Shown here piece after piece: positions 10,590 to 33,161 of a DNA stretch of 33,161 nucleotides. The position numbers and the translations under genes are program-made. The notes under the pieces were generated by a model, which was not told the origin of the DNA, did not search any database, and saw nothing but the letters and a program-made list of their open reading frames with translations. The stretch is from Lampropedia cohaerens (GTDB lineage Bacteria > Pseudomonadota > Gammaproteobacteria > Burkholderiales > Burkholderiaceae_C), in assembly GCF_001005215.1 (NCBI RefSeq), contig NZ_LBNQ01000010.1:1-33161 (forward strand), in the 5' to 3' direction. The stretch's first letter is position 1; every line of letters starts with the position of its first letter.

Positions 10590-10590
10590 G

Positions 10591-11112: not shown

Positions 11113-11150
11113 GGGTCAGTGACTCCTGGTGCAATCAGGCGTAGCGATGC

Positions 11151-13668: not shown

Positions 13669-13678
13669 GCCGTCTCCC

Positions 13679-14656: not shown

Positions 14657-14710
14657 GGCCTGCCTCCGGCAGTGTCAGTGCGGCATGGCGCCGCCATCGC
14701 GGATCTGCGC

Positions 14711-16039: not shown

Positions 16040-16046
16040 GGGACGT

Positions 16047-17528
16047 TCAGCTCCTCAGGCTGGGGATCAATCGGCCCAGCAGACTGCGCTTGGCAGCCGG
16101 CGCAGCCAGTTCGGGATGGTGCGTGCGCAGCAGCTGGTCGGCCAGCTGCCCCACTGCCTGCACGTAGGGGTCGCGGTGCCGCTCGGGCGCCAGCAGCTGG
16201 CCCTGGTTGACTGCCTGCGTCAGCGCCAGCCGCCGCTCGGGAATCACCGCCAGCAGCGGCAGCTGCAGCTGGCGCGCGACCTGCTGGGCATCGAGCTCAA
16301 GCCGCTTGTCGAAGCGGCTGACGATCAGCTGAATCTTGCTGCGGTCGATCTTCTGCTCCAGCAGCTGGCGCACCAGATCGGCGGTGGAGACCACGCTGGC
16401 CACGCTCTGGTCACACACCACCCAGACGGTGCTGGCGCGCATGGCCACGCGGGCAGCCAGGCTGCTCTGCTGCACGGCGCCCAGGTCGGCCACGACATGG
16501 CGAAAGTACTGGCGCAGGCGCAGCACCAGCAGATCGGCATCGGCGTAGGAGACCTCGCGCAGCTCGCCGGTGCGCGGCGGCAGGCTCAACAGGCGCAGCC
16601 CGCTCGCATGGCGCAGCAAGGCGGTGGAGACCATGCGCCGGTCAAAGCGGCGCAGGTTCTGCACGGCCTCGATGAAATCAAAGCCGGTGCCGACATCCAG
16701 ATATAGCGAACCGTCACCACCGGGGCTGCCCAGATCGAGCAGCAGGGTCTGCAAGGCCTGTTCGTCATCCTGGCCCGTTGCCGGCCCCAGCAACGAGGCT
16801 GGCGCGTCATCGTCCTGCACCAGTCGCTGCTGCAGGTACCAGGCCAGATGCGCGGCCAGCAAGCTGGTGCCCAGCCCCGCGCGGGCCGACAGCACGGCCG
16901 TCAGCGGCGCACTGTCCTGCGCCTCGGGCGCTATGCCAGGACTGCGGCTGACCAGCTCGCGCACCAGCTTTTGCGCCACCTGCGGGGAGCCATCAAGGTC
17001 CAGGAAGTCCTGCACACCCGCGCGCAGCGCGCCGAGCGTGACTTCCGGATTCTTCATGCGGCCCACGGCGATCAGTGGCAGATGCGGGTGCGACACGCGC
17101 AGCTGCTGCACCAGCCGCTTGGCCAGCTCCAGCACCGGCAACTCGAAGTGGATGAACACGGCATGCGGCAGCAGCAGCTGCACCTGCTCATCCAGATTGT
17201 CCTGAAAGCGGGCGGTGTGCAGCCGCGCGCCATCGAGTACGCGGCGCATCCAGGTTTGCGCGAGCGCACTCTCCGGCGTGCCGGCATGCACCAGCAGCAA
17301 CTCCGCATCCAGATCGGCGCAGGCGGACTCGCGCGCCGGCATCGCCTGCAGTACTTCCATGGCTGCCGGCGTCTGCGCTGGCGCTGGTGGCTTCGCTGGC
17401 ACGGGCGCCGGGCGGGGCGCTGAAGCAGCCAGCAGCGCTTCCAGCGACGGCAGCGGCGAGGCCGCCGGCGCCGGGCTGGGCCGCGTATCGCCAAACGGCG
17501 CGTCGGCAGGGGCGAAGGGGTTGTTCAT
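16047..17528 (-). CDS. tadZ: TadZ/CpaE-like pilus localisation protein with atypical P-loop
   Basis: This 493-residue protein is the MinD/ParA-like factor that positions the Tad machine. The start at ATG 17528 is 26 bases after the secretin stop; the frame stays open upstream but would overlap cpaC. Residues 1-60 are a Pro/Ala-rich disordered region. Residues about 75-195 are a receiver-like domain (PLIAVGRMKNPEVTLGALRA, then GVQDFLDLDG). The ATPase-like domain begins near 208. Its Walker A position reads SARAGLGTS (214-222), lacking both lysines of the KGGxGKT motif, so ATP binding is doubtful. TadZ proteins with altered P-loops are known. No strong ribosome site is seen before the ATG. Confidence 0.85.
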   Translation of the reverse strand: MNNPFAPADAPFGDTRPSPAPAASPLPSLEALLAASAPRPAPVPAKPPAPAQTPAAMEVLQAMPARESACADLDAELLLVHAGTPESALAQTWMRRVLDGARLHTARFQDNLDEQVQLLLPHAVFIHFELPVLELAKRLVQQLRVSHPHLPLIAVGRMKNPEVTLGALRAGVQDFLDLDGSPQVAQKLVRELVSRSPGIAPEAQDSAPLTAVLSARAGLGTSLLAAHLAWYLQQRLVQDDDAPASLLGPATGQDDEQALQTLLLDLGSPGGDGSLYLDVGTGFDFIEAVQNLRRFDRRMVSTALLRHASGLRLLSLPPRTGELREVSYADADLLVLRLRQYFRHVVADLGAVQQSSLAARVAMRASTVWVVCDQSVASVVSTADLVRQLLEQKIDRSKIQLIVSRFDKRLELDAQQVARQLQLPLLAVIPERRLALTQAVNQGQLLAPERHRDPYVQAVGQLADQLLRTHHPELAAPAAKRSLLGRLIPSLRS

Positions 17529-17554
17529 GGCAGCGTTGCGTTTCAGGAAAAGCC

Positions 17555-19330
17555 TCAGTAAGAGAATCCGGGCAGCGCCGCATCCGGCTTGAGGCCGCCG
17601 GCGATGAACGGCTCCCACACCTGCGAGGCATAGGGCCGCTCCGACGTTGCACCCGGCAGCAGCGCCTGCAGGTCCGTGCCCGCCGCCAGCGGATGCACCA
17701 GATGCGGGGTCACCACGATGGCCAGTTCGGTCTCATCCTGTGAATAGGCCATGTTCTTGAAGAAGGTACCGATGATGGGCAAATCGCCCAATACCGGCAC
17801 CTTGTCCACATAGGAAGATGTTGTGCGGCTGACCAGCCCGCCGATGATGAAGCTTTCGCCATCAGCAAGCTCCACCATGGTGTCGGCACGCCGTGTGCGA
17901 ATCGCTGGAACCACAACGCCACTGACCGCAACGCCGTTGCTGAAGTCGAGGTCACTGGCTTCTGGCGCGACCTTGAGTGCTATGCGTTCGTTGGCAAGAA
18001 TGGTCGGCGTCAGCTGCAGCTTGACACCAAACTCCTTGTACTCAATGGCCACATTGCCGTCATTGCTTGGCACGGGAATGGGGATTTCTCCTCCAGCCAG
18101 GAAACTGGCACTCTGGCCGGTGTGCGCCAGCAGCGTAGGCCGCGCAAGCACGCGCGCAAGACCGTTGTTTTCCAGGAAGCCGAGCTGCACGCCTATGCCT
18201 GCACCACTGAAAGCGTTGCTGAAACCGAACACCAAATTCATAGCACTGGCAATCGACGCGGAAATGCTGCCGCTACCAGTGACGGCGGAGTTTGCGGCGC
18301 CATTTACCGCACTGCTGACCGCACTTCCGACTGCTCCGCCGATGGTTCCCGTTGCGCTGTTGCTGAAACCCGTGCTGCTGTTGTAGTTAGCGGTCGCAGA
18401 TCCTGAAGCATTCAGATTGCCGTTGACGCTATTGGAGAAATTGCTACTCAGGTTTTTGCCCGAACTATTACCTATGTTGAAGTTCGCCGAAGTCGTCGTC
18501 CCCGGAGTGAACACACCAAAACTAAAGCCGTGGTTGTTGGCTCCGCCACTGAAGATATTGATACCGGCCTGCTTCATCGCAGACTTCTTGAACTCGACAA
18601 CGTGCACTTCTACCTGCACGGTGTTGCTCTTGACCGCCACGGCCGAGCGGTCCACCAGCGGGGTGTCGGCCGGTGCGGTCAGCTGCAGCGCGGCCAGGGC
18701 CTGGGCATGTTCGGGCACGCTGCCAAGGCGCCGCTCCAGCATCAGCATCTGCGCGCGCACCTGCACCGGCCAGACCTGCGGCTGATCGCTGCCGCGCGGC
18801 CAGACCATCAGGCTGGTCGTGCCTGGCCCCTTGGCCGTCAGCAGCAGCTCGGCTGGCGGCGCGCTCTTGCCTTGCCCCTGGCTGGCGCGAAGCACCTTCA
18901 CGTCCAGCACCTGCGGATCGCCCACCGCCACGCGGGTCACCGATGTGCCCGGCTGCAACAGACGCTGCTGGCCCGCCGTCAGTCGCAGCGGCGTGACCGC
19001 CGATTCGGCAGCCAGCGGGTCGATGGCGACCTGCCAGCCTGGCGCATCCTGCGCGGCGTCGGCCTCCTGCACTGCGGCGGCCTGGGTGGCCGTGGATGCA
19101 CGGGCAGTGGGCTCCGCCACATTCACAGCCACCGTGCGGGCTGCTGCCGGCATCAGCGGCAGACTGGGCTCCTGCAGCGGCTGCAGCGGTTGCTCCGGCA
19201 CCTGCGCCTGCAACAGGGTCGGCGCGCTCAGCGCCAGCGCGGCACAGCCGTGGCAGAGCAGCTGCACGGCGCTGCGCAGCGCAGCATGGGATGGTGCTAG
19301 GGCCTGATGATGGCGGGGGGCGTGTGGCAT
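17555..19330 (-). CDS. cpaC: CpaC/RcpA secretin, outer-membrane pore of the Flp pilus
   Basis: This 591-residue secretin forms the outer-membrane channel. Two starts compete: ATG 19330 (GAGGGAA seven bases upstream, giving a usable signal peptide) and ATG 19369 (weaker GAGG, longer basic leader). I prefer 19330. An N-terminal pilus/BON-type domain is visible (RLTAGQQRLLQPGTSVTRVA, then GDPQVLDVKVL). The secretin core has QSASFLAGGEIPIPV, VRLQLTPT-like KLQLTPTILANERIAL, GESFIIGGLVSR, and the signature VPVLGDLPIIGTFFKN. Between about residues 260 and 365 (18236-18553) sits a Gly/Ser/Asn/Ala-rich low-complexity insert that makes it longer than usual CpaC. Confidence 0.92.
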   Translation of the reverse strand: MPHAPRHHQALAPSHAALRSAVQLLCHGCAALALSAPTLLQAQVPEQPLQPLQEPSLPLMPAAARTVAVNVAEPTARASTATQAAAVQEADAAQDAPGWQVAIDPLAAESAVTPLRLTAGQQRLLQPGTSVTRVAVGDPQVLDVKVLRASQGQGKSAPPAELLLTAKGPGTTSLMVWPRGSDQPQVWPVQVRAQMLMLERRLGSVPEHAQALAALQLTAPADTPLVDRSAVAVKSNTVQVEVHVVEFKKSAMKQAGINIFSGGANNHGFSFGVFTPGTTTSANFNIGNSSGKNLSSNFSNSVNGNLNASGSATANYNSSTGFSNSATGTIGGAVGSAVSSAVNGAANSAVTGSGSISASIASAMNLVFGFSNAFSGAGIGVQLGFLENNGLARVLARPTLLAHTGQSASFLAGGEIPIPVPSNDGNVAIEYKEFGVKLQLTPTILANERIALKVAPEASDLDFSNGVAVSGVVVPAIRTRRADTMVELADGESFIIGGLVSRTTSSYVDKVPVLGDLPIIGTFFKNMAYSQDETELAIVVTPHLVHPLAAGTDLQALLPGATSERPYASQVWEPFIAGGLKPDAALPGFSY

Positions 19331-19384
19331 GGGTCGGTTCCCTCGATGTTCGATTGCTTGGCGGGCCATGGCGCTGCCTCTGTC

Positions 19385-20458
19385 TCAATAGCGCACGGTC
19401 TGCACGTCACTGCCGACGTGCACCTGCACGTCGTAGGTGCGCGGCTGTGGTGGTGGCGGGCGCGGCACGGGCGGCGGCGGCAGCAATGGCGCAGCGGCGC
19501 GCTTGCGGTTCTTGCTGTCCCCACCTGTGGCCAACGCATCGAATTGCAGCCCGGCCACGGCGCGGTCCATGCCCTGCAGCACCTGCCCCTTGGCCAGGCG
19601 GGTGGCCACGGGCTGCAGTGCCGTCGGCAGCGCGGCAAACAGCGATGGGTCGGGCAATGCCTCGTCATCGGGGTGGCGCAACGCCAGGGTCAGCTGGCCG
19701 TATTTCTCGGCCAGCGTCAGGCGCTCCACATCCTCCAGCGGTACGGCCAGCACGGCAGTGCGGGCGTTCTCGGGGCGGGCGCTGGCATCCTCGCGTGCGG
19801 CGGCGCTGCTGCGCCGGCTGCTGCTGGTCACACCGGCGCTTGCCTCTTGCGCCTGGGCCTGCTGTTCGCGGCGCTGGGCATCGGTCAGCGGTGGGTTCTC
19901 GACACTGGCACCGCCGTAGGCCAGCACCCGGCTGCGCGCCAGCAGCAGGCGGGTCTGCGTATCCACCGGGGTCTGGCTGCTGCTGCCATCGAGCGTGAAA
20001 TACACATCGACGAAGTCGCCAGGGCGCACCCGGTGGCCAGCGGCCATGGCCTCGCTGACGGGTATGGAGACGGCGCGCTGGCCCGGCTCCAGCTGCAGGG
20101 CCAGACCCCGGATGAGGTGCTGCTCGAACAGCGGCGCCTGCGCCGGCAGTGCCAACGCCGTGGTCTGGCCCACCAGCACGTCGGCATCGGCAAAGCTGCC
20201 GGGCACCGGCGCGCCCATCTGGGCGACCTTCAGGTCCTCGGCGGTGATGCGGTGGCCAGCTGGCAGCGGCTGGGCCGTCACCACCACGTCATGCAACTGC
20301 ACCGGCTCAGGCGGTGCTGGCGCGGGGGCTGAGGCGGTGCTGGCGGTTGGCGGCGGTGCCACGGGCCGCTGCGGCTGGCGGCCCACCATCCAGGCCAGGA
20401 TGCCCAGCCCGATGGCCAGCACCACCAGCAGGCCGGCAAGAATCTTGGTGAGGGTCAT
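19385..20458 (-). CDS. cpaB: CpaB/RcpC, Flp pilus assembly protein with SAF domain
   Basis: This 357-residue protein is anchored by an N-terminal membrane helix (ILAGLLVVLAIGLGILAW) with the rest in the periplasm. It contains a SAF-type domain (VVVTAQPLPAGHRITAEDLK, about residues 58-78) and the CpaB core (SIPVSEAMAAGHRVRPGDFV, DVYF). The middle is charged and disordered and the C-terminus is Pro-rich (PLLPPPPVPRPPPPQP). The ATG at 20458 is chosen because the membrane helix follows at once and CGGAG lies seven bases upstream. CpaB is thought to act with the secretin. The cpaC gene follows closely. Confidence 0.9.
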   Translation of the reverse strand: MTLTKILAGLLVVLAIGLGILAWMVGRQPQRPVAPPPTASTASAPAPAPPEPVQLHDVVVTAQPLPAGHRITAEDLKVAQMGAPVPGSFADADVLVGQTTALALPAQAPLFEQHLIRGLALQLEPGQRAVSIPVSEAMAAGHRVRPGDFVDVYFTLDGSSSQTPVDTQTRLLLARSRVLAYGGASVENPPLTDAQRREQQAQAQEASAGVTSSSRRSSAAAREDASARPENARTAVLAVPLEDVERLTLAEKYGQLTLALRHPDDEALPDPSLFAALPTALQPVATRLAKGQVLQGMDRAVAGLQFDALATGGDSKNRKRAAAPLLPPPPVPRPPPPQPRTYDVQVHVGSDVQTVRY

Positions 20459-20524
20459 GTGTGATCTCCGGCGAAGTTCTGTTCCGAGAAAGGGTTGACG
20501 GGTTGCGCATGCACGGCCGCTGCG

Positions 20525-20580
20525 GCAGACGCTTTCCTGTGCAGGCCCGCAGCCCGGCACCGGCACAGGAAAGCATCTGC
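20525..20580 (-). repeat. Long inverted repeat between the 98-residue gene and cpaB
   Basis: Two 18-base arms (20525-20542 and 20563-20580) pair with a single mismatch around a 20-base GC-rich spacer. On the minus strand no T tract follows, so it is not a standard intrinsic terminator. In the mRNA it would fold into a strong stem about 67 bases before the cpaB start. It could be an RNA-stabilising or processing structure or an operator; the sequence alone does not say. Confidence 0.7.
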
Positions 20581-20612
20581 AGGCGGCCTGCGCCCGGCCA
20601 TTGCAGCGCGCT

Positions 20613-20909
20613 TCATGCGGCCGCCCTGGCAAGGGATGCGGCGCGGCCCCGCTCGCCCTGCGCCGTGGCAGCGGACGGGCGCAGCTCAATGCCGTGCTGC
20701 CGCATCAGCTGCGCGAGGCTGAGCATCTTGCGGTATTCGGTCACGAACGATGGCCTGAGGCCCAGCGCACGGCAGAAGTCCTTGGCGTCGGTGCCCGCGA
20801 GCTCGTCCGCATGCATCAGCACCTGCAGGTGCAGCGTGGCGATCTTCTTCTTGTCCGGCGCGGCCTTGCGCAGTTCATCCTCGATGCGTTCCTTGATCTG
20901 TTCCAACAT
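20613..20909 (-). CDS. Small unrecognised protein of the tad locus, possible helix-turn-helix
   Basis: This 98-residue cytoplasmic protein has no family I can name. It has a charged helical N-terminus (MLEQIKERIEDELRK), then AKDFCRALGLRPSFVTEYRK (about residues 43-62), whose spacing suits a helix-turn-helix or small helical bundle, and an Ala/Arg-rich tail. A ribosome site GGGAG lies five bases before the ATG, and codon use matches its neighbours, so it is a real gene. It sits between the prepilin peptidase and cpaB genes and 48 bases after the peptidase stop. A regulatory or assembly role in Flp pili is inferred from position only. Confidence 0.72.
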   Translation of the reverse strand: MLEQIKERIEDELRKAAPDKKKIATLHLQVLMHADELAGTDAKDFCRALGLRPSFVTEYRKMLSLAQLMRQHGIELRPSAATAQGERGRAASLARAAA

Positions 20910-20957: not shown

Positions 20958-21503
20958 TCACAAGGTAGGCCCGGTGGTATAGGCGACCCAGATGGCGCAC
21001 AGCGCCATGTAGCCCGCATACGGAATGGAGCGCTGGCGGTGGCGGCTGGCAAAGCGCAGGTTCAATGCCTCACCGGGCGCTGCCGCGTGGCGCGCCAACA
21101 GTGGCACATGGGCCTGCAGCCACAGCCCGAGAGGCTGGCACTGCAAGACGCGCCAGCCGACTACCGCAATAGCATGGAGCCCCGCCAGCAGGCTGCCGCC
21201 CAGCCAGACCACCAACAAAGCTGGTGACAGGCCAAACCACAGCCCAACGACGGCGGCAAACTTGACGTCTCCGGCTCCCATCCACCCCAGCGCATAGAAC
21301 GGCAGCAGCGCAGCAAAGGCCACCGTCATGCCAAGCAGCCCACCCCAGGGCGAGACCTGGAATGGCTGCCCGCCGCTGAACAGTGCCACCAGACCTGCAG
21401 CGAGGCCCAGCAGCACCATCCAGTTGCGGACTTTGCGGATGTTTAAGTCTGTGGCGGCGATCACCACAAGCCAAAGGAGCCAGCAAGTCAAGTTCCACAG
21501 CAT
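20958..21503 (-). CDS. tadV: TadV/CpaA, type IVb prepilin peptidase
   Basis: This 181-residue membrane protease should cleave the Flp prepilin and the TadE/F pseudopilins. The two catalytic aspartates are visible: Asp19 in AATDLNIRKVRN and Asp79 in the GxGD motif (GAGDVKF). Several membrane helices flank them. It lacks the N-terminal methylase domain of PilD-type enzymes, as expected for a TadV. The C-terminus carries RHRQRSIPYAGYMALCAIW; this Ile-Pro-Tyr motif is typical of the family. It begins eight bases after the flp stop codon. Confidence 0.92.
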   Translation of the reverse strand: MLWNLTCWLLWLVVIAATDLNIRKVRNWMVLLGLAAGLVALFSGGQPFQVSPWGGLLGMTVAFAALLPFYALGWMGAGDVKFAAVVGLWFGLSPALLVVWLGGSLLAGLHAIAVVGWRVLQCQPLGLWLQAHVPLLARHAAAPGEALNLRFASRHRQRSIPYAGYMALCAIWVAYTTGPTL

Positions 21504-21781: not shown

Positions 21782-23308
21782 CTACCACCAGCCTGCGCGC
21801 TGTACGCCGTCCGCACCCGGGCTGCGTGCCAGCTGGCGCTCGGCGCGCAGCCGCATTGGCGGGCGCAGCGCCACATCAACAGGCGCGCTGACCAGCTGCT
21901 GTACAGGCTGACCCGGCGCGGCCTGCGGCATGCCGGGGGTAAAAAACAGCGCCGCCAGCCACTCGCCCTGCACGCCAAAGGGCAGCAATTGGCCGGTGGT
22001 ACGGGCCAGCTGCAGCTCGGCCAGCTGCAGGTCGTAAAGCGCGTCGGCCTGCTCCAGCAGCAGGTTCTGCAGATCAAGCTGGGCATCAAGCACCTGCGAG
22101 AGGTTGCCGCGCCCGGCCTCGTGCAGGCGCCGCCGGCCCTGGAAGGCCGCTTCAGCCTCGGCGACGGCGCTGGCCAGCTCGGCAGCGCGGGCGCGTCCGG
22201 CCTGCACGCGGCTGTAGCCGGCACTGGCAGCCTCCTGCACCTGGCGGCGCACGCCCTCCTGGGCCGACTGCTGCGACTGCAGCTCGGTCAAAGCCTTGCG
22301 CACGCGGTCGCGCAGCTCGAAGCCGTTGCCGAAGTTCCAGTTCAGCTCCACGCCATAGCGGGTGCCGTCGTTGCTGAGTACGCCCTCGGGGTCATACGCA
22401 TGGCTGACCACCGCCTGCACGGTGGGAAAGCGCTCGGCCTTGGCGCGGTCCACCTCGGCCTGGGCTGCGGCGATCACGCCATCGAGCTCGCGCAGCTCCG
22501 CGCTGTTGGCTTCGGCAGCCTGCTGGGCCTGGGCCTCATTGGCCGGCAGCCATTGGCTGGGCACCTGCAGCGCGGGCAGCCACTGCGGCTGTGGCGTGAA
22601 GCGGAAGTAACGCGCAAAACGCGCCTGCGCCTCCTGCCGCAGCGACTCCATGGCCAGCTGCTGCGCGCGCGCGCTGGCCTGGCGCGAGGCGGCCTGGCGC
22701 AGGTCATTGCGGCCCACCGCGCCCAGTTGCGCGCGGCGCTCCTCGATGCGGGCGAGCTGACCGACGATGTCGGCGGACTCTGCCGCAATGCCGGCCTTAC
22801 GTTCGTGGCGCTGCAGCTCCAGCAGCGCCGTGAGGGCTTCGAGCAGCACGTTCTGGCGCGTGCCATGCATGACCTGCAACTGCGCCTGCTCCGATGCTTC
22901 GGCCGAGCGAATGCCAGCGCTGATGGCACCGGCATCGAGCAGGTTCAGCCGGGCTTCGGCATTGAGGGCGTTGTAGCTTTCGCGCCCGCGCGGGGTCTCG
23001 ATGCTGCCGCTGTCCGTGCCGATCTGGAAGCTCGGCCAGCGCTCGCCCTTGGCGGTGTCGATGTCGTAGCCCGCGGCCTGCAGCGCGGCGCGCGCCTGCT
23101 GGATGTCGGGGTGCTGGTCCAGCATCTCACCGAGCGCGGCCAGCAACTGCCGGCGCGCAGCGTCATCCGCCAGGGACGTGACCGTCAGCCGCGTGGCCAG
23201 CTGCAGCGAAGGCGCTGCCTGCGCCTGCACGACACCGGCCGTCAGCGCCAGCGCCCCCACTACGGCGACTGCACGCATCTGTTCATGAAGCATTTTCGGC
23301 AGCAGCAT
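21782..23308 (-). CDS. TolC-type outer-membrane channel of a type I secretion system
   Basis: This 508-residue outer-membrane efflux protein has a signal peptide (MRAVAVVGALALTAGVVQAQA, about residues 11-30). Two repeated long helical halves typical of the TolC fold follow, for example LNLLDAGAISAGIRSAEASE and LEALTALLELQRHERKAG in the first half and RERV-like FELRDRVRKALTELQ with LDAQLDLQNLLLEQADALYD in the second. The ATG at 23308 is preferred: GGGAG lies seven bases upstream and it starts one base after the adaptor stop. Another ATG at 23293 is possible. It completes a three-gene export operon with the ABC transporter and HlyD-type adaptor. Confidence 0.88.
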   Translation of the reverse strand: MLLPKMLHEQMRAVAVVGALALTAGVVQAQAAPSLQLATRLTVTSLADDAARRQLLAALGEMLDQHPDIQQARAALQAAGYDIDTAKGERWPSFQIGTDSGSIETPRGRESYNALNAEARLNLLDAGAISAGIRSAEASEQAQLQVMHGTRQNVLLEALTALLELQRHERKAGIAAESADIVGQLARIEERRAQLGAVGRNDLRQAASRQASARAQQLAMESLRQEAQARFARYFRFTPQPQWLPALQVPSQWLPANEAQAQQAAEANSAELRELDGVIAAAQAEVDRAKAERFPTVQAVVSHAYDPEGVLSNDGTRYGVELNWNFGNGFELRDRVRKALTELQSQQSAQEGVRRQVQEAASAGYSRVQAGRARAAELASAVAEAEAAFQGRRRLHEAGRGNLSQVLDAQLDLQNLLLEQADALYDLQLAELQLARTTGQLLPFGVQGEWLAALFFTPGMPQAAPGQPVQQLVSAPVDVALRPPMRLRAERQLARSPGADGVQRAGWW

Positions 23309-23309
23309 G

Positions 23310-24650
23310 TCAGGGCTCCCGGAAGGCTTCGGCCCCGACGCGCAGCACGGGGCGCAGCAGGTACCAGATGAAGGGCTCGTGCCCCAGCAGCAGGTCGACT
23401 TCAGCCTGCATGCCGGTGGTGATGCGGTTGGCGGTATTGCCGACCCACGGCTGCGCGAGGCTGGCCTGGATGCGGAAGTACGATGGTGCACCCGGCTCGT
23501 CGGAGTCGCGGTCGGCGTCAGCCGCCACCAGCGTGACGGTACCGGGCACGCTGCCGTGGCGCAGGAAGTCGTAGGCGGTGATCTTGACCTTGACGGGCTG
23601 GCCTTCGCTGACCAAACCCCGATCAGAGGGGTTCAGCCGCGCCTCGACGATAACTTGGTCGTTGTCCGGCACGATGTCCAGAATCGGCTCGCCGGGGCGC
23701 ACCACCCAGCCGGCGCCGCCGCTGCGCAGCCCCTTGACGATGCCGCTGGTGGGCGCCAGCACGATGGTGCGGGTGCGCTGGCTGCGGGCGCGGGCCAGAT
23801 CCTCGCCGAGGGTTTGCAGCTCGCGCTCGACTTCGGCCAACGCGTCCGAAGCGCGGCTGCGGAATGCGCCCTGCGTCTCGACGATCTTGGCTTCGGCCAG
23901 CGCAACCTTGGCCTGGGCTGCGACCAGCGCCTCGCGCGCGGCGGCGAGCTGGCTGCGCACCTGTTCGAGCGCGCGTTCGTTCTCGATGACTTCCAGCTGG
24001 CCGATGAGCTGCTCGGCAGCCAGCTGGCGGGAAATCGTTGCCTCCTGCTCGTGCAGGCGCAAGCTGGTCTGCAGGCCGGCGATGCGTGCGCGCGTTTCCG
24101 CAACTTCGCCGCGCGCCTGGTGCAGCGTGGCGTTGGCGGCGGCCATGCTGCCCTGGTGCTCCAGCGCGCGGGCCGCAAAGGCGCCGAGCTCGGCCTGCAC
24201 CACCTGCCGATCCAGATCGGCGGGAAAGTCCTGCTCGCTGAGGGGGCGCCCCTGGCTTTCGGCCAGCAGGCGGGTCTTCATTGCCTGGGCCGTGGCATAG
24301 CGTGCGGTGAGCTGTTCCAGGTTGAGGCTGGCACCGCCGAGGTCAATTTCCAGCAGGGGCTGGCCTTCGACCACGGCCTGCCCTTCGCGCACATGCACGG
24401 CCGTGACGATGCCGCCTTCCAGATGCTGCACGGACTGCACGCGATCGGACGGGATGACCTGCCCAGCGGCAACGACGACGTTTTCGACCGGATAGAACAG
24501 GCCCACCGGCACAAGGATGCACAGCGCAACGACCAGCAGGCGACGCGGCGTGATGCGCCAGCGTCCGGCCGGCGCCGTCGCCACCTCGGGCTGCGCAGGC
24601 TGGCGCAGCACCTGGGGCAAATCCTTGCGGGAGGCAGCGAGCGTGCTCAT
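23310..24650 (-). CDS. HlyD-family membrane fusion protein of a type I secretion system
   Basis: This 446-residue adaptor has a cytoplasmic N-terminus, one membrane helix (RRLLVVALCILVPVGLFYPV, residues 36-55), then a lipoyl/barrel-sandwich half (GQVIPSDRVQSVQHLEGGIV). A long alpha-helical hairpin spans about residues 130-300, with many Ala/Glu/Arg heptads. The second lipoyl half follows (VLAPTSGIVKGLRSGGAG) and a beta domain with the HlyD signature-like region DRGLVSEGQPVKVKITAYDF. It should bridge the inner-membrane ABC transporter and the TolC-type channel. The start overlaps the ABC transporter stop (ATGA). Confidence 0.92.
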   Translation of the reverse strand: MSTLAASRKDLPQVLRQPAQPEVATAPAGRWRITPRRLLVVALCILVPVGLFYPVENVVVAAGQVIPSDRVQSVQHLEGGIVTAVHVREGQAVVEGQPLLEIDLGGASLNLEQLTARYATAQAMKTRLLAESQGRPLSEQDFPADLDRQVVQAELGAFAARALEHQGSMAAANATLHQARGEVAETRARIAGLQTSLRLHEQEATISRQLAAEQLIGQLEVIENERALEQVRSQLAAAREALVAAQAKVALAEAKIVETQGAFRSRASDALAEVERELQTLGEDLARARSQRTRTIVLAPTSGIVKGLRSGGAGWVVRPGEPILDIVPDNDQVIVEARLNPSDRGLVSEGQPVKVKITAYDFLRHGSVPGTVTLVAADADRDSDEPGAPSYFRIQASLAQPWVGNTANRITTGMQAEVDLLLGHEPFIWYLLRPVLRVGAEAFREP

Positions 24651-26455
24651 GCGGCCTTCTCCCGGGTTGTGGTGGCGGCTGCCACGCCCCTGCCATCCTG
24701 CACGGCAGCACCGAACAGGCGCGGCAGCAGCTGCTGCGGCGTGCCACGCTCGATGCTGCCGTCGCCCGGCAGGTGAATGATGTCGTCCGCTGCCGCAGTC
24801 ATGCGCGCCGAGTGCGTGATGACGATGACAGTGTGCTTGCGCGCGATCTGCCGCAGCGTGAGGATGAGCTGGCTCTCGCTGGCAAAGTCCAGGTCATTGC
24901 TGGGCTCGTCGAGCACCAGCACATTGGGGTTGCGCAGAAACAGCTGCGCCAGCGCGAGCTTGCGCAGCTCGCCCGCCGACAGGCCGGCGCCGCCGTCGGA
25001 CAGTTCGGTCTGGTAGCCCTGCGGCAGGCGGCTGATGAAGGCGTGTGCGCCGGCGAGCTGGCAGGCGGCGACGATGGTGGCATCGTCCGCATCCGGGCGC
25101 ACCATGCGCAGGCCCTCGATGAGCGGGCCGCTGAACCAGTAGACCTGCTGCGCCAGACAGCCAATCCACTGGCCGATGTCGGCACGGGGGAACTGGGCCA
25201 GATCGTATTCATCGAGGAATACGCGGCCGCTGTCGGGCCGGTACAGGCCGGCGAGCAGCTTGCCCAGCGTGGACTTGCCGGCACCGTTGTGGCCGACGAT
25301 GGCGTGCAGCCCACCGGGGCCAATGCTGAGGTCGGCCTCCTCCAGCGTAGTGCGCCCGCCTGGGTAGGTGAAGCTGACCTGTTCGAGCCGCAACACGCCG
25401 CGGGGGCGCGGCAATGCGACTTTGCCGGGTTCGGCCTCCACAGGCTCGTCGAGCACGGCCTGCAGGCGGCGCGTGGCCTCGTTGGCGCGCGCCAGCGCCC
25501 GCCAGCTGCCTGCCAGTTGCGCAATCGGCGCCAGCGCCTTGCTGGCCAGCAGGTTCACCGCCATCAGGCTGCCGATGGTCATCCACTGCGAGTGGATGGC
25601 CACCGCGCCGACGGTGATGACGGCAATGGAGAAAAAGGTCAGCAGCACGGTGGTGGTCTCGCGCGCGTTCTCGATCTCGCCGTTGCGGCTGAAGCTGGTA
25701 GCCAGCCAGTGGTCGTAGCCCGCCTGCCACTGCTGGCGCACGGCGCCGTCGTAACCCAGCACCTTGAGCGTGGCGCGGGCGTTGCAGACTTCGGCAGTGT
25801 GGCGGTCCAGGTCGCGCGCCTGCGCCAGCTCCTCGATGCGGCCGCTGCGCACTTCATCGGCCCACCACCAGGCCAGCACGCCCAGCACCACCATGGCCAC
25901 GAGGATTACGGGCAGCACCGGCAACGCGATGATGCCGATGACGATCAGCGCCAGCAGCGCCATCGGCATGTCCAGCACGGCCGACGCCAGCCCGCCCGAG
26001 AGTGTGCTGCGCATGGCGCCAACGTCGCGAAAGCATTGCAGCCACTGGCTGGCCGGACGCTGCTCCAGCACCAGCAGCGGGCGCCGCAGCATGGAGTGCA
26101 TCAGCGCCTGGGACGTGCCCCGGTCAATGGTGGCGCCAGCCTCGCGCAATGCGCGGGCACGCTGGCGGCGCAGCCACCACTCCAGGCCCAGGATGCAAAG
26201 CACGCCAGCCACCATGGCGATGAGCGTGGCCATGCCGCCGCGCATCAGCACTCGGTTATACACTTGTAACAAAAAGATCGACGGAATCAGACCGAACAGA
26301 CCGATCGGCAAGGACAGCCAGACCGCACGCAGCAGAAACGGATGCGCCTGCTGCGAAGCCGCACGAATCGCGCCAGAGTAAGGGCCGCGCGCCAGCGCAT
26401 CCGGCGTCTCGGTGGGAGACGTCAGCAATCGGCGGGGCAGCAGGTAGCGAATCAT
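24647..26455 (-). CDS. Type I secretion ABC transporter (membrane plus ATPase domains)
   Basis: This 602-residue half-transporter is of the PrtD/HasD kind. The membrane domain occupies about residues 42-320. The ATPase domain has Walker A GHNGAGKS (388-395), an altered signature LSAGE (492-496) in place of LSGGQ, Walker B VLVLDEPSND and switch His548 (VITHS). There is no N-terminal C39 peptidase or C39-like domain of usual size; only about 40 residues precede the first helix. It should export an unfolded protein with a C-terminal signal. The best candidate substrate in the window is the repeat protein at the right edge. A good promoter precedes the gene. Confidence 0.93.
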   Translation of the reverse strand: MIRYLLPRRLLTSPTETPDALARGPYSGAIRAASQQAHPFLLRAVWLSLPIGLFGLIPSIFLLQVYNRVLMRGGMATLIAMVAGVLCILGLEWWLRRQRARALREAGATIDRGTSQALMHSMLRRPLLVLEQRPASQWLQCFRDVGAMRSTLSGGLASAVLDMPMALLALIVIGIIALPVLPVILVAMVVLGVLAWWWADEVRSGRIEELAQARDLDRHTAEVCNARATLKVLGYDGAVRQQWQAGYDHWLATSFSRNGEIENARETTTVLLTFFSIAVITVGAVAIHSQWMTIGSLMAVNLLASKALAPIAQLAGSWRALARANEATRRLQAVLDEPVEAEPGKVALPRPRGVLRLEQVSFTYPGGRTTLEEADLSIGPGGLHAIVGHNGAGKSTLGKLLAGLYRPDSGRVFLDEYDLAQFPRADIGQWIGCLAQQVYWFSGPLIEGLRMVRPDADDATIVAACQLAGAHAFISRLPQGYQTELSDGGAGLSAGELRKLALAQLFLRNPNVLVLDEPSNDLDFASESQLILTLRQIARKHTVIVITHSARMTAAADDIIHLPGDGSIERGTPQQLLPRLFGAAVQDGRGVAAATTTREKAA

Positions 26456-26572: not shown

Positions 26573-29494
26573 CTATTCCACGATACGGAAATGTTCCCGC
26601 AACGCCTGTATCACCAGTGCCTGACTCAGCCTGGCGCCGCCGACGATGAGCACGGTGTCGCCGCGCTGCAGCGTGCGCCGCAGCGACTCGCTGAGGTGGC
26701 CCAAATCCTCGTACCACTGGATACGGGCATCGCCACGCGCCATGGCCGTCAGCGGGCGCAACGGCTCGCCCCACAGCAGCACACGCCGCGCCTGCGCTGC
26801 GGCTGCCGCCCCCTCGCGCAACAGGGGCCCAACGAAGGATTCCTCGCCCGTTGCCGCGCACAGCACGATCAGCCTGCGCTGGGGCTGCGGCGCAATGGCC
26901 TGCAGTTGCGTCAGCGCGCAGCGCCAGGCCACGCAATGGCGGGCCTGACTGTGGTCCAGCAGCACGACGTCATCGTCCAGCCGCTCAGTCAGCCCCGCAC
27001 CTGGCATCGGCTGCCAGCTGCCGAGCCTGCGCGCTGCCGCAGCCAGATCGGCCTGCAGCGCCCAGACACCTGCCAGCGCCATGGCGGCGTTTTCCAGCAG
27101 GTGTGCGCCCCCCTGCGGCAGGCTGGCGAGGATGTCGCCCTCATGGCCAGGCACCCGCATACGCAGCGCCGCCTCGCCGACAGCGGCGGCCGACAGCGGC
27201 TGCCAGCACAGCTCGGCGGCCGCATCGGCCGCACAGGAAAGCAGGCGCAGGTGCCGCGCGGCGGCCAGCTGCCGCACCGCCGGTGAGGCCGCCACTCGCA
27301 GCGGCGCAATGACCGTGGCGCCGCGCTTGATCAGTCGCATCGCTCCCAGCAGTTCGTCACACAGGGGCGGTGCATCGTCGGCGCCATCGGCCGGGGCCAG
27401 ATGCGTGACGACCACCACGTCCGGGCTGACAAGGGCGATCTCCGCCGCCACGGCCGGGAGCGCCAGCTCCACCATCACGGCGCTGGCGTGGTCGCTGGCG
27501 TTGACCAGCTGCAGTGCGGCACTCTGGTGCAGCAGTGCGGCACGGCTTTCGTCCACATCCTGCCCCAGCAGGTGCTGCAGCATGTGGATGCAGGTACTTT
27601 TTCCCGCGCAGCCCATGACGGCGACAACGGGCGCGAGAATGCGCTGGCGCGCCGCCAGCGCCAGTTGCACCAAGGCCAGCGATACATCCGGCACCTGCAG
27701 TGTCGGGCGTGGATGCGATGGCGCCGGGCCGGCGGTATCCGACAACAAGGCCGCTGGCGGCGCTGCCAACTGCGCGTCGCTCTCCGGGCGGTCACCGCTG
27801 CGCAGCACTTGCGCCGCGCCCGGCCACGCGTGGGGACGATGGATGTGCACGCCGCGCACCTGCCGGTGGCCCCCCTGGCAATCCAGATGGCGCCAATGGC
27901 CACCGGTCAACTGCGCCAGGCTGTCCATGTCCCACGCCATCGGCGCGCTGGTGGGCGCCAAGGACGCCTCCATGGGCCGCGTGGGGGACTGCGCAGGCGA
28001 AGGCGCGTGGTCGCTGCGCAGCAGCTGCTGTGCCTGCACCCCTACCTGCCAGGCGATGCAAGCGTCGGCCCACCAGACGGCAGGACGCTCTACGCGCGCG
28101 TCTGGTGCGGCCGCCCCATCTGGCACGGCGAAAACAGCCTGCCTCGCTGCCGCACGCAGCGGCGGGGACAGGTAAACAACGTGTTCGGGCCAGGCGGCTG
28201 CAGCCTGCAACTGCAGGGCGCAGGCGCGTGCCACCTCCAGTTGCGCATCGCCTGCGCGCGACGCATTACGGTCACGCTCCTGGGGCTGGCTGGCGAGCCA
28301 GCGCAGGCATTCGCCCCAGCCCATGCGCAGGGCGAGCCCGACTGGCTGTTGCAATTGGTGAAATAGCGTCAAGTTCGCGCTGCGACGCATGAATGCGGCA
28401 ATGGCAGCGGGTGTCCGCGGCAGGGGCTCGGCGCTCAGGGTGTCCACCAGCGCTGCGGCAAGTGCGGCAACCAGCCGAGCGGCGCGCAGTTGCTGCCAGG
28501 ACTCGGCCGCGGCGTGGCTGGCCAGCGCGCGGCGCGCCCACTGCGCGGCCAGCACTCCGGCCTGATGGCGCAACGGCGCGGGCGCCGGCGAGCCGGATGC
28601 GGCCAGGCGCACCAGCAGCAGTGCAATGGCGCCCGCTGCCAACCTGTCGGTCGGCTGGGCAGCAACTGTGAGCTGCTGCACCCACTGACCAGCCTCGGCC
28701 AGCACATCCCGCGCCGGCAATACCTGCGCAGCGGCCAGCAGCCACTTTGTATACCAGCAGCCGACCTGCGCGGCCACCGGGCCCGGTCGCACCGGGGCCA
28801 TCAGGTGCGCGGCAGCCGCTGCCAGAGGGTGCCAGCCGCCGGTGGCCAAGGGCATTGCCAGTGCGGGCCTGGGCAGCGCCACAGGATGCGCGCCGGGCGT
28901 GCAGCACAGTCCGCGCAGGCGCAACTGCAGCCATGAATCCTGCGCACTGGCATCGGCAGCCGTCAGCGGGTTGTCCGATTCTGCCGCATCGGCACGGCGC
29001 CTGACCGACACCATCCGACCTGCCCGGGCCCAGCCCTCGCCGTGAAAATAGGGCCCGGCCAGCAGCACATGCGCAAAGCGCCGGTCGATCCAGGCGTGCC
29101 GCACGTCCTGCCCTGGCATGCGGACTGCCTCGGATGGTGCCAGCACATCTTCTACCCAATCGATGCGCAGCGTTACCGCGCTGGCCCGCTGACGCCACAC
29201 CCAGTGGCGCACACGCCGCGCACCGGCGCGCCAAGCCTGCGCCAGGCTGTCGCCACAGACATGAAAGACGTGGACTGCGCTGTCGTCTGTCGCCATGGAG
29301 AACACCAGAATGGCGGCCGGCAAGGGCTCGGGCAGTGGCGCCTGTGCATGCTGGCACAGCCACTGCCAGCAGCGCGCAAGCTGCCGCTCCAGCTCGGGCA
29401 GGCCGTTGTCCCCGTGCTCCGGCAGGATCGCCAGACGACTGTCAGCCTGCAAGGCGGGGCGGGTCACCATATCGGGCGTGCCGCGGCTGCGCAT
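26573..29494 (-). CDS. Fusion of an unknown N-terminal region with a MurF-like Mur ligase domain
   Basis: This is a 973-residue protein. Residues from about 520 to the end have the length and order of MurF: an N-terminal MurF-type module (DSLAQLTGGHWRH, then RGVHIHRPHAWPGA), P-loop VMGCAGKST (626-634), VELALPAVAAEI followed by SPDVVVVTHLAP, ENAAMALAGVWAL (801-813) and a Rossmann-like C-terminal domain. Key positions are altered. The P-loop is GCAGKST not G-T/S-N-G-K-T-T, the HN motif is EN, and the conserved DDSYNANP-like segment reads LDHSQARH. It is therefore unlikely to make peptidoglycan precursors. Residues 1-500 match no family I can name; parts are Ala-rich and helical (about 225-350). 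The gene follows the OmpA-type gene by four bases, with no clear ribosome site at ATG 29494; ATG 29470 is possible. Confidence 0.75.
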   Translation of the reverse strand: MRSRGTPDMVTRPALQADSRLAILPEHGDNGLPELERQLARCWQWLCQHAQAPLPEPLPAAILVFSMATDDSAVHVFHVCGDSLAQAWRAGARRVRHWVWRQRASAVTLRIDWVEDVLAPSEAVRMPGQDVRHAWIDRRFAHVLLAGPYFHGEGWARAGRMVSVRRRADAAESDNPLTAADASAQDSWLQLRLRGLCCTPGAHPVALPRPALAMPLATGGWHPLAAAAAHLMAPVRPGPVAAQVGCWYTKWLLAAAQVLPARDVLAEAGQWVQQLTVAAQPTDRLAAGAIALLLVRLAASGSPAPAPLRHQAGVLAAQWARRALASHAAAESWQQLRAARLVAALAAALVDTLSAEPLPRTPAAIAAFMRRSANLTLFHQLQQPVGLALRMGWGECLRWLASQPQERDRNASRAGDAQLEVARACALQLQAAAAWPEHVVYLSPPLRAAARQAVFAVPDGAAAPDARVERPAVWWADACIAWQVGVQAQQLLRSDHAPSPAQSPTRPMEASLAPTSAPMAWDMDSLAQLTGGHWRHLDCQGGHRQVRGVHIHRPHAWPGAAQVLRSGDRPESDAQLAAPPAALLSDTAGPAPSHPRPTLQVPDVSLALVQLALAARQRILAPVVAVMGCAGKSTCIHMLQHLLGQDVDESRAALLHQSAALQLVNASDHASAVMVELALPAVAAEIALVSPDVVVVTHLAPADGADDAPPLCDELLGAMRLIKRGATVIAPLRVAASPAVRQLAAARHLRLLSCAADAAAELCWQPLSAAAVGEAALRMRVPGHEGDILASLPQGGAHLLENAAMALAGVWALQADLAAAARRLGSWQPMPGAGLTERLDDDVVLLDHSQARHCVAWRCALTQLQAIAPQPQRRLIVLCAATGEESFVGPLLREGAAAAAQARRVLLWGEPLRPLTAMARGDARIQWYEDLGHLSESLRRTLQRGDTVLIVGGARLSQALVIQALREHFRIVE

Positions 29495-30099: not shown

Positions 30100-33000
30100 T
30101 TACAGCCAGTGCTGGCTTTGTTGCTGCTGGGCAAACAGCGATGCCCCCGCAGCGTCTGCGGCACTGTCGTCCGCCTGACTGCTGACCGCCAGCGCCACCG
30201 GTTCGAAGCCAGCATCCGCAGCCGTGAACGCCGCAGCGCTGCCACCACCAAGCAGTCCGCCGAGCAGGCCACCGCCAGCGCCGCCGCCCAGTAGCCCCCC
30301 CACCAGACCGTTCTCGCCAAGCACGCCGTCGAGCAGCCCGCCCACCAGGCCATCCGAGCCCAGCAGACCGTCCAGCAGTCCGCCGTTGGATTGCCCTGCA
30401 TCTGCCGTGCCGTCGCCCAGCAGGCCAATGCCCAACAGGCCGCCAAGCAGGCCATCGTTGCCGATCAGGCCGCCCACCAGCCCGTCCGAGCCGGTGATCG
30501 GGCCCAGCAGGCCGCTATTGCCAGTCAGATCACCCAGCAGGCCGCCGTCGGCCAGGATCGGATCGAGCAGCCCGGCGTCTTCTCCACCACCGAGCAGGCC
30601 ACCACCCAGCAGACCACCCAGCAGCCCTTCCTCGCCGAGCAGACCGCCCAACAGGCCACCTTCCCCGCCGCCAAGCAGACCACCGACCAGGCCGTCCTGA
30701 CCCAGCAGACCATCGAGCAGCCCCGAGCCGCCTTCGCCATCGCTGACGCCATCACCCAGCAGGCCAATGCCCAGCAGACCGCCAAGCAGACCATCGTTGC
30801 CGATCAGGCCACCCACCAGCCCGTCCGAACCGGTGATCGGGCCCAGCAGGCCACTGTTGCCAGTCAGATCGCCCAGCAGGCCGCCGTCGGCCAGGATCGG
30901 ATCGAGCAGCCCGGCGTCTTCTCCGCCACCGAGCAGGCCGCCGCCCAGCAGACCACCCAACAGCCCTTCCTCGCCGAGCAGACCGCCCAACAGGCCGCCT
31001 TCTCCGCCGCCAAGCAGGCCACCACCCAGCAGACCACCGAGCAGACCGCCCAGCAAACCATCCTCACCCAGCAGGCCACCCAACAGCCCGTCGCCACCCA
31101 GCAGGCCGTCGAGCAGCCCGCCGCCGTTGCCGCCACCGAGCCCTCCGTCACCGCCGAGCAGGCCACCCAGCAGACCACCGAGCAGACCTTCGTCGCCAAG
31201 CAGCCCGGCGAGCAGGCCACCTTCGGTGAGGCCACCGAGCAGCCCGCCACCACCGAGCAGGCCACCCAGCAAGCCGTTCTCGCCCAGCAGGCCGTTCAGC
31301 AGGCCGGCAACCAGATTCTCATTGCCTGCACCGCCGAGCAGACCGCCCAGCAAACCGTTCTCGCCCAGCAAGCCACCCAGCAGGCCATCCTCACCCAGCA
31401 GGCCGTTCAGCAGTCCTCCTTCAGTCACGCCACCGAGACCGGACAGCAGCGAGGTCAACACGCCGCCCTCACCAATCAGGCCGACCAGCAGGCCACCGAT
31501 AAGGCCATCCTCACCCAGCAAGCCCTGCAGCAGGTCATCGCCAAGGGCGCCACCAAGCACGTCGGAGCCAAGCAGCCCCGTCAACAGGCCATCGGGGCCT
31601 GCCAGTGCGCCAAGCAGCTGACCGACCGGGCCATCACTGCCAAGCAGCGCACCGAGTGCCGCATCACCGATCAGGCCATCCTCGCCCAGCAGCGCGGTCA
31701 ACGCACCGTTCTCGCCCAGCAGACCGTCCAGAAGGCCGGAGACCAGGCCATCCTCACCCAACAATCCGTCCGTGAGTTGTTCCAGCTTGAGATCATTCAG
31801 CCCCAGTGCCGCACCAAGATCACCAACCAGCGGCTGCAGTACACCTTCTAGCGCGCCCAGCACACCACCCAACACACCCGAGGAGCCGAGCAGAATGCCC
31901 AGCAGACCGTTCTCATCAAGCAGCAGCGCGTTGGCGAGGCCATCCTTGCCCAGCAAACCACCCAGGCCACTTTCCGTCAGCGCCCCGCCCAGCAGTTGAC
32001 CGAGCAACGAATCGTCGGCCAGCAAAGCACCCAGCAAACCGTTGAGCGCGCTGCCTTCGGCAAGCAGGCCACCGACCAGGCCATCCTCGGCCAGCAGCTG
32101 ACCCACCAGACCGTTCTCGCTGAGGATTTGTCCCAGCGCACTGTCTTCGCTGAGCAACAGACCCGTCAGCAGGCCGTTTTCAGCCAGCAGCTGACCCAGC
32201 AGCGCATCCTCATTGAGCAGGTTGCCCAGGATGGCATCGAGCTGCCCCCCTTCGCCAAGCAGGTTCTCGAGGGTGTTGCCCAGCCCCAGACCGACCAGCA
32301 GACTGCCGACAAACCCTTCTGTCAGCGCATGCACGACCGCATCGGTCGCGAAGTCCACCTGCAGCCCCAGTGCCTGGCCGATCTCTTGCAGGGTACCTTC
32401 AGGCAGCAGCCCATTCAGTGCCGGCCCCAGTAGGCCAGTCAGGTTATCCACAACGCCTGCGACCGTGTCATCCAGCGCGTCCAGCCCGTTCGGATCGTTC
32501 GGATCGAACTCGGCGCCCAGCAGGGGGCTGAGTGCATCACTGAGAAGGTCGGTCAACGCTCCGGTGGTTCCGACGAGCGCCGTGAGCGCTCCCGCTTCAA
32601 GCCCCAGCGACTCTTCCAGACCTTTCAGCAGCGATTCTGCGGCCTGTTGCCCTGGATCCAACAGTTGCGCACCATCATCGTCGGAGTCTGCATCGGAGTC
32701 CGAATCGCTGTCCGAATCCGAGTCACTGTCGGAGTCCGAATCGCTGTCCGAATCCGAGTCACTGTCGGAGTCCGAATCGCTGTCCGAGTCCGAGTCGCTG
32801 TCCGAATCCGAGTCGCTGTCCGAATCCGAGTCGCTGTCCGAATCCGAGTCGCTGTCCGAATCCGAATCACTGTCCGAATCCGAATCACTGTCCGAATCCG
32901 AGTCACTGTCCGAATCCGAGTCACTGTCCGAGTCCGAATCGCTGTCCGAGTCCGAGTCGCTATCGGAGTCCGAGTCGCTGTCGGAGTCCGAGTCACTGTC

Positions 33001-33161
33001 GGAGTCCGAGTCGCTGTCGGAGTCCGAGTCGCTGTCCGAATCCGAGTCACTGTCGGAGTCCGAATCGCTGTCCGAATCCGAATCGCTGTCCGAATCCGAA
33101 TCGCTGTCCGAGTCCGAATCGCTGTCCGAATCGCTGTCCGAATCGCTGTCCGAATCGCTGT
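30100..33161 (-). CDS. Giant Ser-Asp/Leu-Gly repeat surface protein, C-terminal part (5' end outside window)
   Basis: The frame is open to the right edge, so the start is missing; 1,020 codons are visible including the stop. In order: a Ser-Asp stalk of about 160 residues, a linker ([17 protein letters not shown]), a helical non-repeat region of about 145 residues, then about 650 residues of short Leu/Gly repeats, and a 40-residue non-repeat end ([20 protein letters not shown], then [12 protein letters not shown]). The repeats are about ten residues, such as [20 protein letters not shown], decaying to GLLGGLLGG near the C-terminus. I see no classical RTX nonapeptides. It is probably the substrate of the adjacent type I system, exported by its C-terminal end. 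That is inferred from gene order and architecture. Confidence 0.8.
30241..32211 (-). repeat. Leu/Gly decapeptide repeat region
   Basis: The translated minus strand is built of a roughly ten-residue unit: acidic pair, Gly or Ser, two aliphatic residues, Gly, Gln or Gly, two leucines, small residue. The units are most regular at the N-terminal side (32211-31900) and become pure Gly-Leu runs toward 30241. The DNA is repetitive too, with CCCAGCAGGCC-like words, which explains long spurious open frames on the other strand. Confidence 0.85.
30411..31018 (-). repeat. Duplicated 270-base segment within the repeat protein gene
   Basis: Copy A (about 30411-30679) and copy B (about 30750-31018) are nearly identical at both DNA and protein level, offset by 339 bases or 113 residues. 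Each encodes a block including [20 protein letters not shown] and [19 protein letters not shown]. Few third-position differences separate them, which indicates a recent duplication or ongoing gene conversion. Confidence 0.85.
32674..33161 (-). repeat. Ser-Asp dipeptide array (microsatellite-like)
   Basis: About 160 residues of almost uninterrupted Ser-Asp are encoded by units of 6, 12 and 18 bases such as GACTCGGATAGC on the minus strand. Every triplet in this frame is TCG, TCC, AGC or AGT for Ser and GAC or GAT for Asp, apart from one Ala at the C-terminal end. The array continues past the window edge. Its last 45 visible bases are a perfect 12-base tandem repeat. Confidence 0.95.

Follow-up and report, generated by a model that had tools for sequence, protein, structure and literature searches.

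BapA of P. denitrificans carries 891 Asp-Ala repeats, is served by the type I secretion system bapBCD and is needed for biofilm, and the authors of that study could not exclude post-translational modification of the protein (PMC5588039). The term 'Mur ligase' is absent from the main text of that paper (PMC5588039). For staphylococcal Sdr proteins, the glycosyltransferases SdgA/SdgB and GtfC/GtfD act on Ser, and these modifying enzymes are encoded beside the Ser-Asp (SD)-repeat surface proteins (PMC5230774). Here we describe a locus of Lampropedia cohaerens in which one gene, aa-Mur (product P0001), joins an N-terminal domain, for which we coined the name aa in this analysis, to a C-terminal half resembling MurF, the cell-wall UDP-MurNAc-tripeptide:D-Ala-D-Ala ligase. 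The window, that is, the whole stretch of 33,161 nucleotides analyzed, is one entire contig, and its end falls within the SD repeat of a surface protein.

The window locus resembles that of BapA (PMC5588039) in having adjacent type I ABC, HlyD and TolC genes near a surface protein in which Asp dipeptide repeats predominate. BapA has Asp-Ala repeats, whereas the window adhesin carries SD and GLLGG-like repeats, and no BapA_N match was found in its available part, the N-terminus lying past the contig end. aa-Mur is encoded beside the SD-repeat protein as the Sdr enzymes are; those enzymes are glycosyltransferases, whereas one half of aa-Mur is of Mur type, and no hydroxyl group is available in an Asp-Ala repeat. 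An earlier note on this DNA had named cyanophycin synthetase (CphA), which adds Arg to Asp side chains, as an example of a Mur-ligase fold outside cell-wall synthesis; we assume for aa-Mur, too, a Mur-type module that acts on Asp side chains. The architectures differ: P0001 has no ATP-grasp domain (Pfam, E 0.01), and the candidate assignment as a cyanophycin-synthetase homologue was rejected. At E 0.01, cyanophycin synthetase models gave no match to P0001 (a relative, P0004, was matched weakly, at 9e-5), and the acceptor of aa-Mur would be a ribosomally made, secreted protein. Some relatives are aa-CapA(PGA_cap)-Mur fusions, recalling PgsB/CapB and CapA of poly-gamma-glutamate synthesis, but the window protein has no PGA_cap match and its Mur half is MurF-like. 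Among titles and abstract starts of open-licence literature, no description of aa-Mur with such adhesins was found, nor, in the portions of that literature examined, any enzyme acting on Asp-Ala repeats. In the reading that we favour, at roughly even odds and judging from its sequence, the window protein is a pseudo-ligase that binds ATP and helps its adhesin to be exported or kept stable. The gene and its parts are as follows.

26573..29494, minus strand: aa-Mur gene (P0001), an open frame of 973 residues
26576..27937, minus strand: MurF-like half, residues 520-973, from profile, PDB and Foldseek matches
27593..27613, minus strand: P-loop GCAGKST, residues 628-634, a valid Walker A (GxxGK[ST])
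26948..26959, minus strand: LDHS motif, residues 846-849, standing where I-D-D-x-Y-N-A-N-P would be
27950..29407, minus strand: N-terminal half, residues 30-515, a shortened, eroded aa domain

The earlier note had read residues from about 520 to 973 as MurF-like, and the murF profile, the PDB entry 1gg4 and Foldseek agree on this. NCBIfam murF matched residues 591-952 at 4.8e-16, although its 58.7 bits fall well short of the curated cut-off (288.6), and 1gg4, a MurF structure, matched the C-terminal half at 1.1e-6. Pfam Mur_ligase_C, at 0.0017 and under its cut-off, was the sole Pfam match of P0001 at E 0.01. In the AlphaFold model of residues 521-970, means of the predicted local distance difference test (pLDDT) over 10 residues were 65-95, except for 46 (701-710) and 58 (881-890), and the top eight Foldseek matches of the modelled half were all MurF chains (best TMt 0.71). 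The C-terminal half is thus predicted to be a three-domain MurF-type Mur fold. A genuine murF gene lies elsewhere in the same genome (L002), with 29% identity to P0001. Other long-frame matches, in L033 and L034, were rejected as ordinary MurE-MurF fusions by sequence.

We then tabulated, in an alignment of 87 Mur domains including 17 true MurFs and 59 fusion Mur domains, eight residues that we take to be invariant across Mur ligases. All eight are present in 17/17 true MurFs. In P0001 and the other genus members (n = 4), H198, N290 and R324 are gone, K119, S/T120, E168 and D342 are kept, and N293 is kept in three of the four; the Y-N-A-N-P segment and the Lys of KGSR are missing from all four as well. 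The lost His and Arg, presumably essential in Mur ligases, are not uniformly substituted (D/P/V/S and A/A/N/S across the four). The replacement of the D-D-x-Y-N-A-N-P segment by LDHSQARH, reported earlier, is seen in the alignment. The HN motif has indeed lost its first Asn (L799 in P0001), but its His is kept (H798) and the 'EN' taken for a change is the retained second Asn (N802). The P-loop had been called changed, wrongly: GCAGKST is a valid Walker A, and its GC-x-GK core is invariant in 5/5 members of the subfamily described below. In sum of likeness to MurF, the window protein shares the order of the C-terminal half, the predicted fold, the P-loop, the Glu and the Asp, but it lacks the His, the Arg and the D-D-x-Y-N-A-N-P, GDMxELG and KGSR residues, and its Mur half is fused to an aa domain while the true murF is separate. 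Since the ligation residues are gone and the P-loop, Glu and Asp stay, a pseudo-enzyme fits the window protein better than an active ligase.

The first Mur domain bears on a cell-wall role, in which aa-Mur would make or bind a peptidoglycan-like precursor that anchors the adhesin via the OmpA/Pal lipoprotein. MurF is the nearest Mur type, and a Pal-like gene adjoins aa-Mur in OmpA-type loci. D37, R39 and F55, which occur in nearly all true MurFs compared and which we take to serve UDP binding (UDP-MurNAc-peptide domain), are however changed in P0001 (G52 is kept) and are retained in 0/59 fusions and 0/4 genus members. In addition, the aa-Mur loci of Pseudomonas and rhizobia analyzed gave no OmpA match, although type I genes and Asp repeats (D-repeats) are present in many of them. 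We regard a cell-wall role as very improbable.

The first 500 residues had been described as matching no known family. No Pfam family matches them at E 0.01, and none of its own was found for aa, a domain of about 570 residues, among the members scanned; nevertheless, alignment places the N-terminal half as an eroded, shortened member of a widespread family of hundreds. A first contig scan with P0001 alone found no relative, and aa became visible as a separate domain via P0002, the protein of the relative in genome G031. hhalign aligned the window half to the family at 98.9% (E 2e-17, 246 columns). A scan of species genomes with the aa profile gave 563 relatives, and the locus analyses used the best 80 of these 563 (31 Variovorax by title), which come from Variovorax, Pseudomonas, Rhizobiales, Methylobacter, Magnetococcales and others. 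Near-invariant aa columns were defined as those conserved in at least 93% of 87 sequences (164 columns). The window protein keeps 37 of them, the four genus members 37-44 and P0002 107, and staphylococcal aa proteins keep 114 and 115; because of the latter, the loss in the window subfamily exceeds the distance between phyla. P0001 therefore has the family architecture, with aa fused N-terminal to a MurF-like domain, but not the family's near-invariant residues.

Across the family, aa occurs alone, in fusion with a MurF-like domain, with CapA(PGA_cap) plus Mur or with a GT2 glycosyltransferase (L044), and next to a GT4 (L049). Weak matches to GH88, GH127 and GH76 were obtained in 4, 4 and 3 of 38 members (best 0.0013), and further ones to GH76 mannanase (0.025) and cellobiose 2-epimerase (0.026, P0002); together with the helical pattern of the model, they provide a lead that aa is alpha/alpha-barrel-like, akin to glycan enzymes. 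Foldseek gave no fold for aa, and among the matches listed all were Mur ligases or plastid Mur-like proteins. Weak viral-library matches to Memo/AMMECR1-like proteins (L094 10001-13165, residues 1-210) may concern the aa start.

The genes around aa-Mur in the window are the following.

30100..33159, minus strand: surface protein, C-terminal part of about 1019 residues, N-terminus past the contig end
32683..33156, minus strand: (Ser-Asp)n repeat of the surface protein, 158 residues, truncated by the contig end
29499..30017, minus strand: OmpA/Pal-like lipoprotein (Pfam OmpA 1.7e-20; NCBIfam Pal 6.3e-36, just under cut-off)
24647..26455, minus strand: type I secretion ABC transporter, from Pfam/NCBIfam profile matches
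23310..24650, minus strand: HlyD-type adaptor (TIGR01843 9.4e-91, above cut-off)
21782..23491, minus strand: TolC-type outer membrane channel (Pfam OEP 1.4e-49)

The order is surface protein, OmpA/Pal lipoprotein, aa-Mur, then ABC, HlyD and TolC, with a Tad cluster downstream. Four bases separate the stop codon of the lipoprotein, whose lipobox LVAC was read directly in the sequence, from the start codon of aa-Mur. The listed frame of the TolC-type channel overlaps HlyD and is probably too long, its real start being further in. Staphylococcal Sdr models match the window's (Ser-Asp)n repeat, every one under its cut-off. The window ABC transporter has matches at E <1e-220 in 7 of the 100 genomes searched, its own counted.

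Long-frame relatives of aa-Mur were found among these 100 genomes in G001, G003 and G006 (same genus), G031 and G025. The order OmpA, aa-Mur, ABC, HlyD, TolC recurs in G003, G006, G001, G031, G025, G682 and most Variovorax loci analyzed, with a repeat-bearing surface protein upstream wherever the contig is long enough; that of G001 ends just upstream of OmpA, and its partner repeat is not on the contig. In G025 (L036 5105-10106), the aa-Mur and ABC frames are both interrupted, by assembly error or decay. The window subfamily comprises five species, four of the window's genus and G682 (L211) of another genus. Pairwise identity of their C-terminal halves is 32-50%; invariant across the five are 77/458 residues of that half and 43/515 of the N-terminal half. 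LDHS, like the P-loop core, is invariant in 5/5, and E676, H798 and D847 are also kept. The partner repeats are SD (window), PTE (G003) and TDP/TNP (G006, G682).

We next surveyed the neighbours of aa genes, as the earlier note had suggested. D-repeats were sought with a self-chosen expression, which misses others such as the (PTE)n surface protein of L030. A D-repeat was found in 64/91 aa loci scanned, window included. Of the 80 loci from the profile scan, 48 had at least 6 kilobases of flank on each side of the aa gene; 41 of these 48 had a D-repeat, compared with 1/18 control type I loci (Fisher p 2e-9 with kinship ignored; 23 of the 41 are Variovorax, and 12 genera are represented in all). 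The single positive control, L171 (G012), was later found to have aa at its edge and is still counted as a control. L160 and L161, with no D-repeat and no aa in the stretch, were left out as controls, their ABC genes being orthologous or closer to the window's. An ABC or HlyD match was present in 63/80 aa loci (any match at 1e-5; a few may be other transporters). Where a repeat accompanied a Mur half whose P-loop is intact, it was mainly Asp-Ala in 18/19 loci. Three of three alphaproteobacterial partner proteins tested matched BapA-type adhesins above curated cut-offs; the Variovorax partner in L053 did not.

The association recurs in staphylococci. In S. simulans, an Sdr-type gene with a D(S/A) repeat of 1204 residues is directly followed by an aa gene and then a Mur gene, and in S. 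epidermidis an aa gene adjoins a frame with a D(S/A) repeat of 756 residues. Whether or not they carry a Mur half, aa proteins are thus inclined to adjoin secreted proteins with long (Asp-Ala)n or (Ser-Asp)n repeats, and their expected linkage to an Asp-rich secreted partner and to type I genes is borne out in many Pseudomonadota loci, the window locus with its secretion genes and repeat protein among them. Scattered, unrelated contexts, which the note took to speak against its proposal, do not describe most aa-Mur fusions, although several aa-CapA-Mur and aa-GT loci lack type I genes or repeats. One staphylococcal aa protein (L180 14839-16455) is publicly annotated as poly(glycerol-phosphate) alpha-glucosyltransferase and has no Pfam match at 0.05; that name may be wrong. 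In G012 (L225 8971-12095), an aa gene (642 residues) and a separate Mur-like frame (536 residues) lie beside a D-repeat frame of 2048 residues, so that the two halves are separate genes in a Gram-negative genome.

The Mur halves of relatives are in different states; in the Comamonadaceae type of locus, to which the window belongs, several lineages have a Mur half without its P-loop or none at all. The first Asn of HN is absent from 59/59 fusion Mur domains, with Met in its place in 51. The Walker Lys is kept in 26/59, of which 24 also have Y-N-A-N-P; the two without it are P0002 and a Methylobacter protein. The Lys is lost in the other 33 (26 Variovorax, 5 Pseudacidovorax, Xenophilus and G025), and five loci, two of Hydrogenophaga and three OmpA-type ones of Variovorax, yielded no Mur half. 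In Variovorax L053 and L058 the P-loop has given way to low-complexity inserts that vary in length, the rest of the Mur half being conserved. In an aa tree of 71 rows, from which most Variovorax rows were dropped and G025 was left out, the eroded and Mur-less rows cluster with P0002 in a single group of 19, which is moderately supported (85). Across nine Variovorax loci, the mean ratio of nonsynonymous to synonymous substitution rates (dN/dS) of the P-loop-less Mur half was 0.099, the lowest of the genes compared (aa 0.179, ABC 0.145, HlyD 0.139, OmpA 0.236, sigma-54 activator 0.112). The P-loop-less Variovorax Mur fold is maintained by purifying selection and hence retained for a role other than ligation driven by ATP. 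Ranging from intact ligases over conserved Mur halves that lack the P-loop to proteins with no Mur half, the family offers a series in which the change of a cell-wall ligase into a non-catalytic partner can be studied.

We propose that the window protein descends from an aa-Mur enzyme combining an alpha/alpha-barrel-like domain with a MurF-type amide ligase. The most likely substrate of intact relatives would be a secreted adhesin of Asp dipeptide repeats, met in the cytoplasm before it is exported. There, the repeat or a sugar-like donor would be bound by the aa domain, while the Mur domain would use ATP to activate the Asp carboxylates and couple an amine to them. In an Asp-Ala repeat the carboxylate is the only reactive side chain, which fits a Mur ligase, since such an enzyme would activate a carboxylate. 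Intact aa-Mur proteins are thus best read as modifying Asp-repeat adhesins before export. The earlier suggestion that the window paralogue joins a small molecule to a carboxylate suits these intact relatives, in 18 of whose 19 repeat-bearing loci the repeat is mainly Asp-Ala; the note's other suggestion, an ATP-binding pseudo-enzyme, suits the window protein better. In the window version, most of the near-invariant aa residues are gone, as are the transfer and acceptor-binding residues of Mur, but those on the ATP side (GC-x-GK-S/T, E676, H798, D847) and the invariant LDHS are kept. As a pseudo-ligase, it would bind the adhesin before export and pass it to, or hold it ready for, the adjacent ABC transporter.

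A wider proposal, which we advance tentatively and at clearly less than even weight, is that Asp-repeat proteins of the Gram-negative BapA type and some of the Gram-positive Sdr type carry an amide placed on Asp by a Mur-type ligase guided by aa, making them a genetically encoded, secreted analogue of cyanophycin. As part of the same tentative proposal, this activity would have been re-tooled or silenced in the window lineage as its repeat changed from Asp-Ala to Ser-Asp or Thr-Asp/Glu-Pro. aa is a large family that matched no Pfam entry of its own and is tied to Asp repeats in two phyla; the company that aa-Mur keeps with these surface proteins hints that an enzyme borrowed from cell-wall synthesis may chemically modify their repeats, and the family gives a direct test of whether it does.

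Several observations weigh against these readings. Asp-Ala repeats also lie beside P-loop-less Mur halves (most Variovorax loci) and Mur-less aa proteins, so the repeat needs no active ligase. Seven of the 48 full-flank aa loci lack a D-repeat. In a Burkholderiaceae sample of 20 aa loci, excluding Lampropedia-type copies, G682 and weak second matches, 12 have one and 8 do not (aa-CapA-Mur in five cases, aa-GT in one and aa alone in one, the last locus being truncated by a contig start). Residues 209-516 were modelled poorly, with pLDDT <50 nearly throughout, so that the erosion of aa rests on sequence alignment. The orthologous locus of L. hyalina (DSM 16112; genome G002, which agrees with the record of that strain in 17,019 of 17,019 overlapping bases and is placed in the window's genus) has the transporter and surface protein without OmpA or aa-Mur between them, and the protein is therefore not essential for such a locus.

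The last of these points also bears on relaxed constraint, in which the gene would be heading for loss and its function dispensable in the clade. aa-Mur is the least conserved operon gene compared (identity within the genus, over the best BLAST segment, about 30-34% versus 71-76% for ABC), the L. hyalina locus does without it, and related loci lack the Mur half. Against this, frames of about 1000 codons are intact in five species in the same gene order, with 120 invariant residues, and we consider relaxed constraint improbable. The 77 invariant residues of the C-terminal half, including GC-x-GK and LDHS, could equally mark a re-tooled site. The Mur half would then be an active enzyme that uses ATP, with LDHS in a new active site, and modifies SD or Thr-Asp/Glu-Pro repeats. 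The five members, which represent two genera and whose C-terminal halves are pairwise 32-50% identical, have in common the P-loop with its invariant Cys, E676, H798 and LDHS, and their partner repeats, where seen, depart from the usual Asp-Ala; however, the presumably essential His and Arg are gone with no single consistent substitute, and the aa domain too lacks most near-invariant residues. We regard a re-tooled enzyme as the main rival of the pseudo-ligase reading, clearly less probable than that reading but more so than relaxed constraint.

The genome from which the window comes also codes for an aa-GT2 fusion (L044 8193-12016), next to a frame with a D(S/A) repeat that likewise extends past the end of its contig, and this fusion could supply the aa activity missing from the window protein. 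In L. hyalina, an aa-CapA-Mur protein of 2391 residues possibly has a second Mur domain (L122 10001-17176). The aa-CapA-Mur proteins of L045, L047, L214 and L221, of about 1600 residues and with no D-repeat in the stretch, form a separate branch, and an alpha/beta hydrolase match adjoins those of L045, L214 and L221. Two condensation-domain genes directly precede the Sulfitobacter aa-Mur gene (L182 8899-11781) and could make an amine or acyl donor.

The remainder of the window holds these features.

20958..21503, minus strand: prepilin peptidase, adjoining the Tad pilus cluster (Peptidase_A24 5.2e-16)
7873..20689, minus strand: Tad pilus cluster (CpaB, secretin, TadZ-like, TadA, TadB/C, TPR, TadE/G-like), from profile matches
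6412..7827, minus strand: sigma-54 activator (Pfam Sigma54_activat 8.7e-64)

No anti-phage system was matched by PADLOC at E 1. Most Variovorax loci have a gene similar to the sigma-54 activator in the vicinity of their type I genes. A formate dehydrogenase operon (FdhE, cytochrome b, Fe-S subunit and molybdopterin subunit) occupies window positions 498-6122.

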